A DNA stretch of 5,402 nt from Armatimonadetes bacterium RBG_19FT_COMBO_69_19 (lineage in GTDB: Bacteria > Sysuimicrobiota > Sysuimicrobiia > Sysuimicrobiales > Kaftiobacteriaceae): positions 16,402 through 21,803 of the forward strand of contig MENB01000174.1 in NCBI GenBank assembly GCA_001768125.1, in the 5' to 3' direction. How positions within the stretch are numbered: position 1 is the first letter of the stretch; each line of letters begins with the position of its first letter. The notes beneath the pieces are model-generated. The model was not told where the DNA came from. It did no database searches and saw only the letters and a program-made list of their open reading frames with translations. Shown here piece after piece: positions 1 through 4,925 of this stretch. The position numbers were made by a program, and so were the translations under genes.

Positions 1-1982
1 AGGTCCCGTGTGCCATTGGGTGAAGGCGCCGGCGATGCTCCACCCTTAGACGCCGCACGGCCAGCAACTACCATCCACACCCGCTGCAGGAAGCGCTGCG
101 CGCCTTCAATCCCCCGGCTGTTCCAGGGCCCCCCGCCGTCCCACGGTCCGATGAACATCAGGTAGGCGCGTACCACATCCGCGCCCATGGTAGTGACGTA
201 GTCGTCCGGGTTCACCACGTTGCCGCGAGACTTGCTCATCTTCTCGCCGTCTTCGCCCAGGATGACGCCCTGGTTGAACAGCCGCGTCATCGGTTCCCCA
301 AAGGTCACCAGCCCCAGATCGCGCATCACCTTCGTCCAGAACCGCGTATACAGCAGGTGCATCACGGCGTGCTCGACGCCGCCCGTGTACTGATCGACCG
401 GCAGCCAGTATGCGCCCGGCGCCGGGTCGAAGGGACGGTCGGGCTCGTGCGGGCTGACGTACCGGTACTGATACCAGGACGAGTCGATGAAGGTGTCCAT
501 CGTGTCCGTCTCGCGCTCGGCCTCCCCACCGCAGTTCGGACACGCGACCTTCCGGAAGCCTTCGTGCTGCTTGAGCGGCGACTCGCCGGTCGGCAGGAAT
601 TCCGCGTCCATCGGGAGCCGGACCGGCAGATCCGTCTCCGGGACCGGCACGGTCCCGCAGTGCGGGCAGTAGAGGATCGGGATCGGCGTCCCCCAGTAGC
701 GCTGGCGGCTGATCAGCCAGTCATGTAGCCTGTAGTTCGCTTTCCTCTCGCCGAGGCGATGCTGCTCCATGGAGTCCGCGATGGCATGCCAGCCCATCGC
801 GGACGACATGCCGTCGAACGGACCAGAGTTCACCATCGTCCCCTCACCCAGGTAGGCCTCGCGCGGCGGAGCGCCGTCCCAGCTCGGGGGGGCGATGACC
901 ACGGGGATCGGCAGGCGGTACTTCTTCGCGAAGTCGAAGTCCCGCGCGTCGTGGGCCGGCACGCCTTGGATGGCGCCGGTGCCATACGTCAGCAGCACGT
1001 AATCCGCGATGAAGATCGGCACCTTCTCCTGGTTCATCGGGTTCAAGGCGTACGCACCGATGAAGACCCCGTCGCGCTCCTTCTCGGTGGACATCCGCTC
1101 GATGTCGGACTCGCGCGCCGCCTTGAACTTGTAGGCCTCGACCTGTGCTTTGCGGTCCGGCGTGGCGAGACGATCAACCAGGGGATGTTCCGGCGCCAGG
1201 ACCGCAAAGGTCATCCCGTACACCGTGTCGGGACGCGTCGTGAAGACACGGAACCCCACCCCGGCGTAGCCGGCGATCTTCAGCTCAAACTCCACGCCGA
1301 CGCTCTTGCCGATCCAGTTCTCCTGCAGCACCCGCACGCGCTCGGGCCACTCGACGCTGGAGAAGTCCAGCAGTTCGTCGGCGTATGCCGTGATCCGGAG
1401 GAACCACTGCTCCAGGTTCTTCTTGATGACCGGTGTCCCGCAGCGCTCGCAGACCCGCTCCTCGCCGACGACCTGCTCGCGGGCCAGGGTCGTGTTGTCC
1501 TTGGGGCACCAGTCCACCGGCGCGAGCGCCCGGTAGGCCAGCCCCTTCTCGTACATCTTCAGGAAGAACCACTGGTTCCAGCGGTAGTAATCGGGGTCGC
1601 AGGTGACGACCTCGCGCTGCCAGTCCCACATCGCCCCCATGGAGCGCAGCTGAGCTCGCATCCGGGCGATGTTGTCCATCGTCCATCGATAAGGATGGAT
1701 CTTGTGCTGGATGGCGGCGTTTTCCGCCGGGAGTCCGAAGGCGTCGAAGCCGATCGGGAACATCACATTGTACCCCTGCATCCGCTTGAAGCGCGCCGCG
1801 GCGTCGGAGGGCGCCATCGCGTACCAGTGGCCGATGTGCAGGTCCCCCGATGGATACGGGTACATCGTCAGGAAGTACCACTTCGGAGCCGGATCGAAGT
1901 CGCGGGCGTGGTGCAGCCCGTCGGCCTCCCACCGCGCCTGCCACTTCGCCTCGATCGAAACCGGATCGTATCGCTGGACCAT
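1..1982 (-). CDS. leuS: Leucyl-tRNA synthetase (class I), 3' end cut by window edge
   Basis: This enzyme charges tRNA-Leu with leucine in the cytoplasm. The frame is open from ATG 1982-1980 to the left edge (660 codons plus 2 nt). The family usually has about 800-880 residues, so the C-terminal anticodon-binding region is mostly missing. Visible in order: the catalytic signature HIGH at residues 49-52; a Cys pair C178/C181 of a zinc-knuckle-like insert; the CP1 editing domain with TTRPDT (248-253) and VPAHDARDFDF (341-351), which keeps the Asp (D348) conserved for hydrolysing mischarged tRNA; LISRQRYWGTP (423-432); Cys pairs at 439/442 and 481/484; and an exact KMSKS loop at 581-585. The start is secure: an in-frame TAG (the ilvE stop) lies six codons upstream, and AGAGGAG precedes the ATG by about 10 nt. 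It is the second gene of a leucine-controlled operon with ilvE. No frameshift is seen. Confidence 0.97.
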   Translation of the reverse strand, partial: MVQRYDPVSIEAKWQARWEADGLHHARDFDPAPKWYFLTMYPYPSGDLHIGHWYAMAPSDAAARFKRMQGYNVMFPIGFDAFGLPAENAAIQHKIHPYRWTMDNIARMRAQLRSMGAMWDWQREVVTCDPDYYRWNQWFFLKMYEKGLAYRALAPVDWCPKDNTTLAREQVVGEERVCERCGTPVIKKNLEQWFLRITAYADELLDFSSVEWPERVRVLQENWIGKSVGVEFELKIAGYAGVGFRVFTTRPDTVYGMTFAVLAPEHPLVDRLATPDRKAQVEAYKFKAARESDIERMSTEKERDGVFIGAYALNPMNQEKVPIFIADYVLLTYGTGAIQGVPAHDARDFDFAKKYRLPIPVVIAPPSWDGAPPREAYLGEGTMVNSGPFDGMSSAMGWHAIADSMEQHRLGERKANYRLHDWLISRQRYWGTPIPILYCPHCGTVPVPETDLPVRLPMDAEFLPTGESPLKQHEGFRKVACPNCGGEAERETDTMDTFIDSSWYQYRYVSPHEPDRPFDPAPGAYWLPVDQYTGGVEHAVMHLLYTRFWTKVMRDLGLVTFGEPMTRLFNQGVILGEDGEKMSKSRGNVVNPDDYVTTMGADVVRAYLMFIGPWDGGGPWNSRGIEGAQRFLQRVWMVVAGRAASKGGASPAPSPNGTRD

Positions 1983-1992
1983 GGACGTTCGA

Positions 1993-1999
1993 CTCCTCT
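1993..1999 (-). promoter_or_regulatory. Ribosome binding site of leuS, overlapping the ilvE stop
   Basis: AGAGGAG ends about 10 nt before the leuS ATG. Its first bases are the last two of the ilvE stop codon TAG (2000-1998), so translation of the two genes is probably coupled. Confidence 0.75.
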
Positions 2000-3032
2000 A
2001 TGCCCGCTCGCCGCTACCGCGGCGCACCGGCGCGGGACCGTCGCCCACACGGTGGCCGTCGCCGGAGTCATGCCCGCTGCCGGAGCGAGTGGCACTGCCG
2101 GGCCGGTCGGCGTTCACGTCCGTGAGCCAGCCGTGCCGGTCGGGCAGGTGCCCCCCGGTGATCCCGAAGAACTGCTCGGCCACCCTGGCCGTCACCGGTC
2201 CCCGGCGGCCCTCGCCGACCGCGATGCGGTCCACCGAGCGCACCGGTGTGATCTCCGCGGCGGTGCCGGTGAAGAACACCTCGTCGGCCATGTACAATGT
2301 CTCGCGCAGCAGCGGCTCCTCACGAACCGCAAGCCCGAGATCGCGCAACAGCGTCAGCACGGCCGCGCGTGTGACGCCGGGCAGGACGCTCGCCGACAGC
2401 GGCGGGGTGAAGACCACCCCATCGCGGACCACGAAAACGTTCTCGCCGCTGCCCTCGCTGATGAACCCCTGCGCGTCCAGGGCGATGCCCTCGGTGAAGC
2501 CGTGGTCGGCGGCCTCCATCGCGATGAACTGCGAGGTGACGTACTGTCCGCCGATCTTCGCCATCGGCACGGCGGTATCGGGCGCGGCGCGCCGCCAGGA
2601 ACTGACCATCACGTCGACACCCTGCTCCACGGCTTCCTGTCCCAGGTAGCGTCCCCACTCGAAGGTGATGATCGCCACTTCAACCGAGGCCTTCCGCGGG
2701 TCGAGGCTGAAGGTCCCCGGCCCGCGAAACACGAGCGGACGGATGTAGCAGCTCTCGTGGTTGTTCGCGCGCACCGTGGCCACGATCGCCTCCGTCACCT
2801 CACTGGCCGTGTACGGCAGCGTCATCCTGAAGATCCGGCACGAGTCCATCAGCCGCCGCACGTGCTGGGGCAGGCAGAAGACGGCCGGCCCCCTCGGCGT
2901 CGCGTAGGCCCGGATCCCCTCGAAGACGCTGCTGCCATAGTGCAGGGCGTGCGCCGTCACCGGCACGCGCGCCTCCTCCGCGCTGACCAAGGCCCCGTTG
3001 AACCAGATCGATGCCGCGCCCGCCATCTCCAT
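1998..3032 (-). CDS. ilvE: Branched-chain amino acid aminotransferase (class IV PLP enzyme)
   Basis: This PLP enzyme interconverts Leu, Ile and Val with their 2-keto acids, using glutamate/2-oxoglutarate, in the cytoplasm. From ATG 3032 it has 344 residues, against about 309 for E. coli IlvE, which it resembles throughout. Seen: IWFNG near the N-terminus, HALHYGSSVFEGIRAY, MVSSWRRAAPDT, the PLP lysine in AKIGGQY (K159), ISEGSGENVF, and the phosphate-binding GTAAEITPVRSVD. The homologous region ends at HGWLTDVN, followed by a Gly/Ser/Arg/Asp-rich tail of about 36 residues not found in typical IlvE. A second ATG at 3026 (MAGAASIWFNG) has slightly better spacing from the G-run and is almost equally likely. 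The frame opens further upstream to TTG 3125, but that lies in the T-box antiterminator and is not coding. Expression should depend on the leucine T-box upstream. Confidence 0.96.
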   Translation of the reverse strand: MEMAGAASIWFNGALVSAEEARVPVTAHALHYGSSVFEGIRAYATPRGPAVFCLPQHVRRLMDSCRIFRMTLPYTASEVTEAIVATVRANNHESCYIRPLVFRGPGTFSLDPRKASVEVAIITFEWGRYLGQEAVEQGVDVMVSSWRRAAPDTAVPMAKIGGQYVTSQFIAMEAADHGFTEGIALDAQGFISEGSGENVFVVRDGVVFTPPLSASVLPGVTRAAVLTLLRDLGLAVREEPLLRETLYMADEVFFTGTAAEITPVRSVDRIAVGEGRRGPVTARVAEQFFGITGGHLPDRHGWLTDVNADRPGSATRSGSGHDSGDGHRVGDGPAPVRRGSGERA

Positions 3033-3067: not shown

Positions 3068-3107
3068 AAAACATAAATGCCGCCATCGCCATTGGGACGA
3101 AGGCGGC
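3068..3107 (-). terminator. Intrinsic terminator of the T-box leader
   Basis: GCCGCC (3107-3102) pairs perfectly with GGCGGC (3084-3079). Inner pairs are TCG/CGA and CC/GG around a CAAT loop, and the T-rich tract ATTTATGTTTT (3078-3068) follows. Its 5' arm and loop contain the 3' strand of the antiterminator (CTTCGTCCCAA), so the two structures exclude each other. This marks the riboswitch as a transcriptional attenuator rather than a translational one. The T-tract is interrupted, so termination may be leaky. The ilvE start follows 35 nt later. Confidence 0.82.
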
Positions 3108-3125
3108 CTCCGCGGTACCACCCAA
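3092..3125 (-). promoter_or_regulatory. T-box antiterminator with UGGU tRNA-acceptor-binding bulge
   Basis: The sequence has the highly conserved T-box core GGGTGGTACCGCG. Helix A1 is TTGGG (3125-3121) with CCCAA (3096-3092). The seven-base bulge TGGTACC (3120-3114) follows, then helix A2, GCGGAG (3113-3108) with CTTCGT (3102-3097), including G-U pairs. The bulge bases TGGT (3120-3117) pair with an uncharged ACCA tRNA end, which fits a tRNA with discriminator A such as tRNA-Leu. It begins only 13 nt after the 3' end of the embedded tRNA-Ala. Confidence 0.93.
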
Positions 3126-3128
3126 GGT

Positions 3129-3223
3129 GATAGCGATCTGGTGGAGCTGGAGGGAATTGAACCCTCGACCTCCCGCACGCCAAGCGGGCGCTCTCCCGCT
3201 GAGCTACAGCCCCATTCGCTATC
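3129..3223 (-). repeat. 8-bp inverted repeat clamping the tRNA-Ala
   Basis: On the minus strand GATAGCGA (3223-3216) lies 2 nt before the tRNA 5' end. Its exact reverse complement TCGCTATC (3136-3129) lies 2 nt after the encoded CCA. In RNA the arms would form an 8-bp stem that closes the tRNA off as a side domain of the leader. It could be a processing stem, or the remnant of an original linker hairpin into which the tRNA was inserted. Pairing is seen in the sequence; function is inferred. Confidence 0.8.
3139..3213 (-). tRNA. tRNA-Ala (anticodon GGC), CCA encoded
   Basis: A complete 75-nt cloverleaf can be drawn. The 7-bp acceptor stem GGGGCTG/CAGCTCC includes the G3-U70 wobble that is the identity mark for alanyl-tRNA synthetase. 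The D stem is GCTC/GAGC. The anticodon stem CCCGC/GCGGG carries loop TTGGCGT with anticodon GGC. The variable loop is AGGTC. The T stem GAGGG/CCCTC carries loop TTCAATT. Discriminator A is followed by an encoded CCA (3141-3139). No mismatch or missing position is seen, so it looks functional and reads GCC/GCU alanine codons. Oddly, it sits inside the T-box leader of ilvE-leuS, between Stem I and the antiterminator. No separate promoter is evident, so it is probably processed from the leader transcript. Confidence 0.97.
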
Positions 3224-3285
3224 CGCTCAACTCACGTATCGTGTGAGGACGGCGGCCCTGCGCGCCGGACGCACCGTGCGCGGTC
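3224..3285 (-). other. T-box linker between Stem I and the tRNA module
   Basis: This is 62 nt of GC-rich leader with no coding signal. It contains one clear hairpin, CTCAC (3247-3243) with GTGAG (3235-3231) around a 7-nt loop, and GC-rich self-complementary sequence at about 3281-3262 that may form the linker stem of the T-box. With the clamped tRNA module removed, the distance from Stem I to the antiterminator would be only about 65 nt. No -35/-10 pair for the tRNA is visible here. Confidence 0.5.
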
Positions 3286-3404
3286 GGGCCTGCTGCTCGC
3301 GGACGAGTTCGGCTGACTCCTGGCGCCGGTCGTTCCACCCTCTCCACCGGCTCGCTCCATCCCGAGCACCAGCCTACTGCTTCCGCTCATCGCGTTTCAG
3401 ACCC
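3286..3404 (-). ncRNA. T-box riboswitch Stem I, leucine (CUC) specifier
   Basis: This is the tRNA-sensing half of a T-box leader. The base helix is GGGTCTG (3404-3398) with CAGGCCC (3292-3286). A K-turn/GA region follows (CGATGA against GAGC), then helix GCGGA (3386-3382) with TCCGC (3303-3299). The specifier loop has the conserved AGTA (3378-3375) on its 5' side and GAACTCG (3310-3304) on its 3' side, with specifier codon CTC at 3307-3305. Above it lie helix GGCTG (3374-3370) with CAGCC (3315-3311), a TGG/CCA helix, the AG bulge AGCGA (3356-3352), and apical helix GCCGGT (3351-3346) with ACCGGC (3330-3325). The apical loop carries GGTGGAA, matching the distal-loop consensus GGUGNRA. CUC fits tRNA-Leu(GAG) and the downstream ilvE-leuS genes. 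Confidence 0.9.
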
Positions 3405-3408
3405 TGTC

Positions 3409-3438
3409 ATTATACCGACGGCTGCCGAGATCCGTCAA
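3409..3438 (-). promoter_or_regulatory. Sigma70-type promoter of the T-box-tRNA-ilvE-leuS transcript
   Basis: TTGACG (3438-3433) and a perfect TATAAT (3414-3409) are separated by 18 bp. The expected start at about 3402-3405 coincides with the first base of the Stem I closing helix, which supports both calls. A near-consensus promoter suits a leader that must be transcribed constantly, because control is by attenuation and it also has to supply tRNA-Ala. Confidence 0.88.
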
Positions 3439-3461
3439 TCGAGTGACCTCGTTCACTCGAT
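3438..3461. repeat. 9-bp inverted repeat touching the -35 box
   Basis: ATCGAGTGA (3438-3446) and TCACTCGAT (3453-3461) are perfect inverted arms around a 6-bp centre. The repeat abuts and shares one base with the -35 element of the leader promoter. No T-run follows on either strand, so it is not an obvious terminator. A protein-binding operator is plausible but unproven. Confidence 0.55.
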
Positions 3462-3586
3462 GGTGGACACTTCCCCCTCCCTGCTGCGATCATGCCGTTC
3501 AGCTTCAGGGAGCGCGGCGGCAGGGTGACCAGGTGGGTCCCGGCCGCAGGCCGTCCGGCCCCGAACCAATTGACCCAAACAGGTCC

Positions 3587-3624
3587 CACAACTCGGTTCG
3601 AACCGAGTTGTGTCGTGGGCCCAC
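3587..3624. repeat. Perfect 26-bp palindrome plus adjacent 10-bp palindrome
   Basis: Positions 3587-3612 form a gap-free palindrome centred on TTCGAA, with arms beginning CACAACTCGG. A second palindrome, GTGGGCCCAC, occupies 3615-3624. The two centres (3599.5 and 3619.5) are exactly 20 bp apart, about two helical turns. The site lies between the divergent promoter and the likely start of the HNH gene, so it may be an operator or a structured 5' UTR. There is no T-tract. The rest of 3462-3680 shows no recognisable gene, RNA or convincing promoter. Confidence 0.7.
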
Positions 3625-3680
3625 CGAACAGCCCATGTGGGTCATTGTGCGCAGGCGCCAGATCACCATCATGGATAGTC

Positions 3681-4925
3681 ATGAGCACACAAGCGGCGTT
3701 TGCGAGCACGGAGACCATATCCACGAGTCGGGGGATGATGTCGTGTGCTCGGGGACTCTCCAATCACGAGCTTATCGCGCGTGTCAAAGAGCTGGCCGAC
3801 CATGAGCGGCGCGCCACCGCCGTGCTGATCGCCCACCTGTCCGTCCTGGACGAGCGACAGCTGTATCTCGCCGAAGGATGCTCGTCCCTCTTCACCTACC
3901 TCACGCAGGTCCTTCACCTCTCCGAACACGCCGCGTACGGTCGCATCCAGGCGGCCCGGGCGGCTCGGCGGTATCCAGTCATCCTCGACCTGCTCGGCGA
4001 GGGGTCGGTCAACCTGACGACGATCACGCTGCTCGCCCGCGAGCTCACTACCCGCAACCATCGTGAACTCCTCACGGCAGTCAGGCACAAGAGCCGGCGT
4101 CAGGTCGAAGAACTCGTCGCGCAGCTGCGACCCCGGCCCCCGGTCCCCTCGTCCATGCGCAGGCTGCCGAACATGGCGCATAGCTCGCCGTCGTCCCCGG
4201 CGCCCGAAACCGGGTCACCCGCCCCAAGCCCCGCCGCCGAATGGGGGCCCCCAGACGCGGCTCCGGGATCGCAGGCGAACACCCCGGGCCTCGAGAGCCT
4301 CTCGTCGCCGGCCCCGGGTCACCCTGTGGCCGCGGGACCTGCGGCTGCGCACAGGAGCACCATCATCCCGCTGGCCCCGCAATGCTACAGAGTGCAGTTC
4401 ACGGCGAGTGCCGAGATGCGGGCGAAGCTGCGCGCGGCCCAGGATCTCCTTCGGCACCAGATACCGGATGGGGATGTGGGGAAGATCCTGGATCACGCTC
4501 TGACGGCGCTGCTCACGGATTTGACGAAGCAGAAATTCGCGGCGACTGATCGCCCGCGGGGAAGCCACGGCGACGGGAACCCCGGCACAAACTCGGGCTC
4601 GCGACACATCCCTGCGGACGTCAGGCGCGCAGTATGGATCCGGGACGGCGGCCGGTGTGCGTACACCGGCCGCAACGGTCGCCGCTGCACCGAACGTGGC
4701 TTCCTCGAGTTCCACCATGTCGTTCCCCACAGCGCTGGTGGACAGGCCACCGCCGACAACATCCAGCTCCGGTGCCGTGCGCACAATAACTATGAAGCCA
4801 ACCTGTATTTCGGTTCGGAAGGACCCCCCGTCCGGGATAAGCCGGTCTCGACCGGTCGTCCGGGTGCACTACCCGCGGACCGGGGCGGCCGCGAGCCAAC
4901 AGGACCTCCGGGCGCCGCCACTTGA
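3681..4925 (+). CDS. HNH endonuclease-domain protein with DUF222-like N-terminal region
   Basis: This is a probable metal-dependent DNA endonuclease of the HNH superfamily; its cellular role is unknown. From ATG 3681 it has 414 residues. Residues about 26-150 are a helical region (LSNHELIARVKELADHER..., LHLSEHAAYGRIQAARAARR, HKSRRQVEELVAQLRP) typical of the many-copy bacterial HNH proteins that also include the mycobacterial 13E12-repeat type. Residues about 154-232 are a Pro/Ser/Ala-rich, probably disordered linker. After a second conserved segment (YRVQFTASAEMRAKLRAAQDLL) comes the nuclease: GGRCAYTG, RRCTERGFLEFHHVVPHS, ADNIQLRCRAHNNYEANLYFG. The HNH residues are H345/H346, N360 and H368, with C326, C336 and C365 nearby. 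A Pro/Gly-rich tail follows. The start is uncertain: ATG 3738 has a GGGGG just upstream and retains all homology, while ATG 3492 would put the palindrome in the coding region. It may belong to a duplicated, mobile-like gene family. Confidence 0.88.
   Translation: MSTQAAFASTETISTSRGMMSCARGLSNHELIARVKELADHERRATAVLIAHLSVLDERQLYLAEGCSSLFTYLTQVLHLSEHAAYGRIQAARAARRYPVILDLLGEGSVNLTTITLLARELTTRNHRELLTAVRHKSRRQVEELVAQLRPRPPVPSSMRRLPNMAHSSPSSPAPETGSPAPSPAAEWGPPDAAPGSQANTPGLESLSSPAPGHPVAAGPAAAHRSTIIPLAPQCYRVQFTASAEMRAKLRAAQDLLRHQIPDGDVGKILDHALTALLTDLTKQKFAATDRPRGSHGDGNPGTNSGSRHIPADVRRAVWIRDGGRCAYTGRNGRRCTERGFLEFHHVVPHSAGGQATADNIQLRCRAHNNYEANLYFGSEGPPVRDKPVSTGRPGALPADRGGREPTGPPGAAT

Follow-up and report, generated by a model that had tools for sequence, protein, structure and literature searches.

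A leucine T-box leader with a complete tRNA-Ala(GGC) gene inside its Stem III recurs in several bacterial phyla

Results

Anatomy of the leader

The stretch of DNA analyzed here, 5,402 nt in length and referred to as the window, raises the question of what a complete gene for one tRNA is doing inside a leader predicted to sense another. A reading made from the letters alone (the sequence-only reading) had placed a tRNA-Ala gene between Stem I and the antiterminator of a leucine T-box, had pointed out that the embedded tRNA is not the sensed one, and had called for a covariance search with the T-box family RF00230. The search returned a match at 3399-3090 on the minus strand (model positions 1-219, 66.9 bits, E 2.4e-14), in which Stem I was aligned (model positions 1-103, with GAA-CUC-G present) and the tRNA appeared as an insert in the Stem III loop. 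ARAGORN called the tRNA-Ala(GGC) at 3213-3139, and RF00005 scored it at 69.5 bits. Both the nesting and the mismatch between the two tRNAs were thereby borne out: the anticodon of the insert is GGC, and the specifier, in the context GAA-CUC-GUCC, is the leucine codon CUC. The parts of the locus are listed below in the order of the minus strand.

3409..3438, minus strand: sigma-70-like promoter, TTGACG (3438-3433), 18 nt, TATAAT (3414-3409); 11/12 consensus matches
3295..3393, minus strand: T-box Stem I with AGUA (3378-3375), specifier loop and CUC specifier (3307-3305); RF00230 alignment
3224..3228, minus strand: GAGCG, the RRRNG motif 5' of Stem III; sequence
3216..3223, minus strand: Stem III 5' strand, GAUAGCGA; RF00230 alignment, fold and covariation
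3139..3213, minus strand: tRNA-Ala, anticodon GGC (3181-3179), with encoded CCA and G3:U70, in the Stem III loop; ARAGORN and RF00005
3129..3136, minus strand: Stem III 3' strand, UCGCUAUC; RF00230 alignment and fold
3092..3125, minus strand: antiterminator with the T-box core GGUGGUACCGCG (3122-3111) and a CGUCCC 3' arm; RF00230 alignment and relatives
3068..3107, minus strand: terminator hairpin (3107-3079) and weak U tract AUUUAUGUUUU (3078-3068); hairpin fold
1998..3026, minus strand: ilvE, class IV (branched-chain) aminotransferase, start at 3026 or 3032; PF01063, E 2.2e-53
3..1982, minus strand: leuS, leucyl-tRNA synthetase, truncated by the window end; PF13603, E 1e-62, and PF00133

The stretch around the tRNA reads GAGCG, GAUAGCGA, AU, tRNA, GA, UCGCUAUC, T-box core and antiterminator, and the 8-bp Stem III (3223-3216 with 3136-3129) closes around the tRNA. 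A separate closing stem in the linker had been proposed earlier; the stem is real, but it is Stem III itself, and the tRNA sits in its loop and not in a free linker. The GAGCG-Stem III part of the RRRNG-Stem III-AA frame is kept in the window, with AC and not AA as the 3' dinucleotide; the available text of the TBDB paper (PMC7778990) describes this frame as part of aminoacylation sensing. The T-box core, able to pair with the NCCA end of a tRNA, is present in the antiterminator bulge. The promoter expected ahead of Stem I was found there, with the near-consensus boxes listed above. The antiterminator and terminator had been called canonical, and both folds were recovered, the terminator hairpin (-20.3 kcal/mol, z -3.1) overlapping the 3' arm of the antiterminator so that the two compete; the U tract is weak, and a simple terminator scan of the window reported none. 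Unconstrained folding of the 376-nt leader was no better than that of shuffles (z -0.76) and was uninformative.

The 66.9 bits of the window leader compare with an RF00230 gathering score of 93, which is a curator's threshold and not a part of the RNA. None of the seven T-boxes found in the window's genome passed it (best 88.1), the other six being without a tRNA, and it was passed by 11 of 18 distant leaders with the same tRNA insert. The nested tRNA may explain the low T-box search scores of some leaders. Elsewhere in the window we observed an HNH endonuclease domain (PF01844) in a divergent 477-aa ORF (3492-4925, plus strand), a GNAT acetyltransferase (PF00583; 4926-5402, minus strand), a perfect 13-nt palindrome CACAACTCGGTTC/GAACCGAGTTGTG (3587-3612) and a 9-nt inverted repeat touching the -35 box of the T-box promoter (3438-3461); either repeat might be an operator or a terminator.

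Stem III closes around the tRNA

Folded alone, the tRNA-Ala adopts the cloverleaf as its minimum-energy structure. With Stem III included, the unconstrained fold is not the cloverleaf (-48.1, against -43.3 for the canonical and -45.0 for the constrained fold). We then compared Stem III among leaders, using 106 of 115 loci with 75 distinct stems (nine loci were dropped for a missing motif or length) and anchoring each stem at the nearest [AG]AGNG, chosen blind to pairing. Paired cells amounted to 68.7%, against 53.5% (sd 1.8) when the 3' strands were shuffled among loci, and 23 of the 75 distinct stems were fully paired, against a mean of 3.7 in the shuffles. Interchangeable pairs among the leaders include GAUAGC/GCUAUC, GGUAGA/UCUACC, GACAGG/CCUGUC and GAGAGC/GCUCUC, and the AA dinucleotide follows Stem III in 95 of 106 leaders. 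A strict rule of at least five uninterrupted pairs at fixed anchors finds the stem in 76 of 114 leaders and does not find it in 38.

The arrangement recurs in several phyla

The locus had been regarded as an oddity with no known parallel, a view that did not survive when genomes, one per species, were scanned for a T-arm with a T-box core 10-40 nt behind it. The scan yielded at least 120 stretches, and among the 120 listed ARAGORN called tRNA-Ala(GGC) in 100, with the tRNA ending 9-26 nt before the T-box core. Two more of the listed stretches (L053 and L142) have the same arrangement by eye, truncated by the locus end. The rest of those listed were set aside: L109 carries an Ala-CGC tRNA with no Stem I seen, L084, L097, L117 and L151 carry other tRNAs with no T-box seen, and 13 had no tRNA called and by eye are not the nested arrangement, among them L043, L060 and L115, which look like the ends of other tRNAs, and L047 and L088, which look like ordinary T-boxes. 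The nested arrangement is thus present in about 100 other genomes from several phyla.

Among the 63 genomes of the Syntrophomonas wolfei class, 53 had the pattern. The Desulfofundulus class gave 17 out of 100, and the phylum of a Sphaerobacter genome, which includes the Ktedonobacteria hosts as well and which we take to be Chloroflexota, gave 27 out of 400. In the window's phylum, which includes contigs recorded as Armatimonadetes MAGs, it was found in 13 of 43 genomes, one of these being false; a match in the genome G022 was to tRNA-Leu(CAG), with no CUC specifier found. Because the pattern misses variants, these counts lean low: when leaders with the tRNA further from the core are counted, at least 20 of the 43 genomes have the arrangement, 19 of the 20 with CUC by regular expression. 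The reversed pattern matched none of the 606 genomes, whereas the true pattern matched 110 (one or more falsely), and the joint between tRNA and T-box is therefore not a matter of chance. The stretches L012 and L082 were identical over the length compared. Three stretches in records named Coprothermobacterota and Caldisericota (L059, L076 and L081) hold a nested tRNA-Ala(GGC) beside a very short Stem I, with about 20 nt from AGUA to the specifier.

Specifier, tRNA and target are nearly constant

Specifiers were compared in 115 non-redundant tRNA-Ala loci including the window, 112 of which had enough upstream sequence. CUC was present in 111 of the 112, the window included (104 by regular expression and seven by eye, with slightly different flanks); the exception was L109, the Ala-CGC locus in which Stem I was not seen. 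Of 123 loci with a tRNA, 110 have LeuS downstream, and IlvE precedes it in 21 of these; two loci have IlvE alone, near a contig end. The other 11 comprise four that are not T-boxes, five whose downstream sequence is shorter than 500 nt, and two (L042 and L096) where there was no LeuS within 1.2-1.7 kb downstream. At a few loci the LeuS start is estimated to be 1.5-2 kb away, and another gene may intervene. The specifier (Leu), the tRNA (Ala-GGC) and the target (leuS or ilvE-leuS) are nearly constant across the leaders.

We also observed an Ala-CGC tRNA just before Stem I in nine leaders (L069, L107, L108, L112, L113, L122, L138, L150 and L330), giving the order tRNA-Ala(CGC), T-box with nested tRNA-Ala(GGC), leuS. 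The order at L109 is tRNA-Ala(CGC), T-box core, terminator-like sequence and ilvE-leuS, with no visible Stem I; this may be a remnant.

The nested gene is the only Ala-GGC copy found in two fully read genomes

All tRNA matches were read in two genomes, and in both the nested copy is the sole Ala-GGC gene found. The window's genome (81% complete, 31 tRNA matches) has one Ala-UGC besides, and tRNA-Leu(GAG) was not found among its 31 matches. G023 (97% complete, four contigs, 47 matches) also has Ala-UGC and Ala-CGC, together with a tRNA-Leu(GAG) whose anticodon could read CUC in the specifier. Fifteen distant genomes were queried with the window's tRNA, and 30 of the 34 matches were read: nine genomes gave the nested gene and no second Ala-GGC, three gave only other tRNAs and three gave nothing.

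A proposed single transcript with two products

The order of the parts, the closure and covariation of Stem III, the single Ala-GGC copies and the recurrence across phyla are best explained, with a probability that we put at roughly 0.7, by a single transcript that is both a tRNA-Ala(GGC) precursor and a leucine T-box leader, with a shared terminator and with read-through into ilvE-leuS on uncharged tRNA-Leu. Transcription would start at the one predicted promoter before Stem I, and the tRNA would form a domain of its own at the distal end of Stem III. Uncharged tRNA-Leu would stabilize the antiterminator and allow read-through; otherwise the T-box terminator would end the tRNA transcript as well. 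The tRNA would be released by RNase P at its 5' end followed by 3' processing. Since this excision would part Stem I from the antiterminator, the T-box decision should come first, and the closed Stem III beside the cleavage site may delay RNase P until it has been made. Because the tRNA lies upstream of the terminator, both outcomes of the switch contain it and the decision would alter only the downstream genes. Such an RNA would deliver tRNA-Ala(GGC) constantly and ilvE-leuS only when charged tRNA-Leu is short. The suggestion that the locus fuses tRNA supply with amino-acid sensing is thus supported only by half: the two would be on a common transcript, but synthesis of the tRNA should escape the switch.

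Un-nested relatives and the origin of the arrangement

Close relatives provided empty sites. In the genomes G038, G029 and G017 the leucine T-box of ilvE-leuS is present but its Stem III is an ordinary hairpin, and each carries a tRNA-Ala(GGC) on the same strand, about 1.6, 3.5 and 0.3 kb, respectively, upstream of the T-box core. In G038 a phage-type integrase ORF (L357, 733-1890) lies between the tRNA and the empty T-box. A tRNA precedes an empty T-box at L201, L205, L206, L328 and L329.

Thirty pattern-negative genomes were checked for LeuS, and 24 gave a usable locus. Two of these (L330 and L337) are nested leaders that the pattern missed; L328 and L329 have Ala-CGC and Ala-GGC in tandem before the empty T-box; L326 and L349 have a T-box with no tRNA nearby; L336 and L347 have tRNA-Ala(GGC) before leuS with no T-box core; 15 have neither tRNA nor T-box, and one begins at a contig end. 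The survey indicates that the arrangement is absent from many relatives. At L336 (genome G532), inspection by eye revealed a promoter-like sequence, tRNA-Ala(GGC), a terminator-like hairpin and leuS, with no visible Stem I or T-box core, and the locus looks like a leader that has lost its sensor and kept its tRNA and terminator. Nesting is not required, since in some genomes the tRNA precedes leuS without a T-box or with an empty one, and the linkage of tRNA and leuS is wider than the nesting, since the empty-site relatives keep the tRNA upstream.

A LeuS tree of 117 rows was built by a fast method, with a weak root and with sampling that favored nested loci. Explaining the nested state on this tree takes 16 changes, of which starred branches force ten or more. 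The empty sites of the close relatives fall among occupied ones with modest support. An insertion of the tRNA into a pre-existing T-box, as first proposed, is possible given the three empty-site relatives; their position among occupied sites, however, suggests that in the window's clade the tRNA may have moved out of the T-box and not in.

These results bear on why the arrangement has been kept. One explanation, to which we give somewhat better than even odds, is that an old linkage of tRNA-Ala(GGC) with leuS put the tRNA into a T-box loop that tolerates inserts, without any regulation of the tRNA, and that the arrangement persists because losing the leader would mean losing the only Ala-GGC gene. 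The linkage without nesting elsewhere (L201, L205, L206, L328 and L329, and the T-box-free L336 and L347) and the mixing of nested and un-nested states on the LeuS tree speak for it, although near fixation in one class (53 of 63 genomes) and recurrence across phyla are much to ask of chance. This explanation is compatible with the single-transcript reading and differs only in the reason for retention.

Could processing and antitermination be coupled?

A second possibility is that cleavage of the nested tRNA by RNase P and antitermination at the T-box affect each other. Early cutting could detach Stem I and force termination, or docking of tRNA-Leu together with the closed Stem III could delay release of tRNA-Ala; either route would link the leucine state with the supply of alanine tRNA. 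The geometry is suggestive: in the window 2 nt separate the end of Stem III from the tRNA, and among the 76 leaders found by the strict rule this gap is 6 nt or less in 50. RNase P is slowed when bases close to its cleavage site are paired (PMC9433436). A function of this kind would also explain the presence of the arrangement in 53 of 63 genomes of one class. Against it, the spacers are longer in the remaining 26 of the 76 leaders, the position of the tRNA before the terminator makes a simple supply link needless, and related genomes get by with a tRNA placed outside the T-box. We regard such coupling as a tentative proposal with the odds well against it. Slightly more doubtful still is the extended form, a two-RNA device in which the leucine state and the supply of the GCC-reading alanine tRNA would be set by one folding event through the Stem III closed around the tRNA.

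A predicted single transcription unit

The nesting would be merely apparent if the tRNA had a promoter of its own between Stem I and Stem III. We scored promoters in 106 leaders (eight loci were dropped), within 110 nt before the Stem I AGUA and in the linker between Stem I and the tRNA. At 11 or more of 12 consensus matches, 59 of the 106 leaders had a promoter before Stem I (0.2% of shuffles) and none had one in the linker. At 10 or more the counts were 67 (shuffles 1.2%) and 3 (shuffles 0.09%), and at 9 or more they were 76 (shuffles 8.3%) and 8 (shuffles 1.6%). The linker matches, slightly above the shuffles, suggest that a few linkers may hold a weak site, as in L039 from Ktedonobacteria, where TTGTCG-17-TATAAT lies between Stem I and the nested tRNA and nothing scored before Stem I. 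No such promoter was found in the window, and with promoters common before Stem I and rare in the linker, the tRNA and the leader look co-transcribed, as the sequence-only reading had held; a separate tRNA promoter, which that reading had named as a reason to give up its view, is improbable. In 98 of 113 leaders the core is followed by a hairpin with at least five T in the next 10 nt; shuffled sequences show this in 11.7% of cases.

The insert is unlikely to be a mimic or an artefact

The insert might instead be a structural mimic or pseudogene unused in translation, serving as an enlarged Stem III or offering its ACCA in cis to the UGGU of the T-box, some 20 nt away in the window. The GGC anticodon and G3:U70 are, however, kept in all 118 nested Ala-GGC tRNAs (four duplicates included), the nested gene is the sole Ala-GGC copy in the two genomes fully read, and U stands at position -1 of the nested tRNA in 73 of 111 sequences, against 20% in the leader. 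These sequences are related, which makes the P value of the excess too favorable. U at -1 is described in PMC9433436 as the optimal base for bacterial RNase P. Since 23 of the 118 were not called with an encoded CCA, cis pairing of ACCA with UGGU was rejected as a general rule, and we consider the mimic very improbable. An assembly artefact joining a T-box locus to a tRNA locus, conceivable for so fragmented a genome (190 contigs, 81% complete) and raised as a concern at the outset, is rejected because about 100 independent records share the joint, among them the isolates Syntrophomonas palmitatica and Desulfofundulus and the four-contig genome G023.

Comparison with known systems

The leader resembles a leucine T-box of the transcription-attenuating family RF00230 in its Stem I, CUC specifier, RRRNG-Stem III-AA frame, core, antiterminator/terminator and aminoacyl-tRNA synthetase target. 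It differs from the known T-boxes in that its Stem III carries the complete gene of a tRNA that is not the ligand, and we know of no earlier riboswitch with a working gene for a different tRNA inside it. A search of titles and the beginnings of abstracts, with subscription papers outside its range, found no description of a tRNA inside a T-box, and earlier reports may exist; the available parts of TBDB (PMC7778990) and of the 2008 T-box survey (PMC2494555) make no mention of one.

The leader would be the first such riboswitch known to us, kept in the genomes of several phyla, and it identifies the loop of Stem III as a place where a folded RNA of 75 nt is naturally accommodated. Whether RNase P cuts before or after the T-box decision becomes a question open to experiment, and the locus suggests that a single-copy tRNA can, through the position of its gene, become coupled to the amino-acid control of a different pathway. 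Transfer RNA genes co-transcribed with mRNAs are familiar from thrU-tufB and metY-nusA of Escherichia coli. The predicted transcript is like these in yielding tRNA and mRNA together; there the tRNA is a separate unit before the mRNA, whereas here a folded regulatory element encloses it. Tandem and duplicated T-boxes also exist as composite leaders, which is the likeness to the present one, but to our knowledge they hold no tRNA gene. T-boxes and tRNA-mRNA co-transcripts were both known already; the locus is a T-box with a new and conserved composite architecture.
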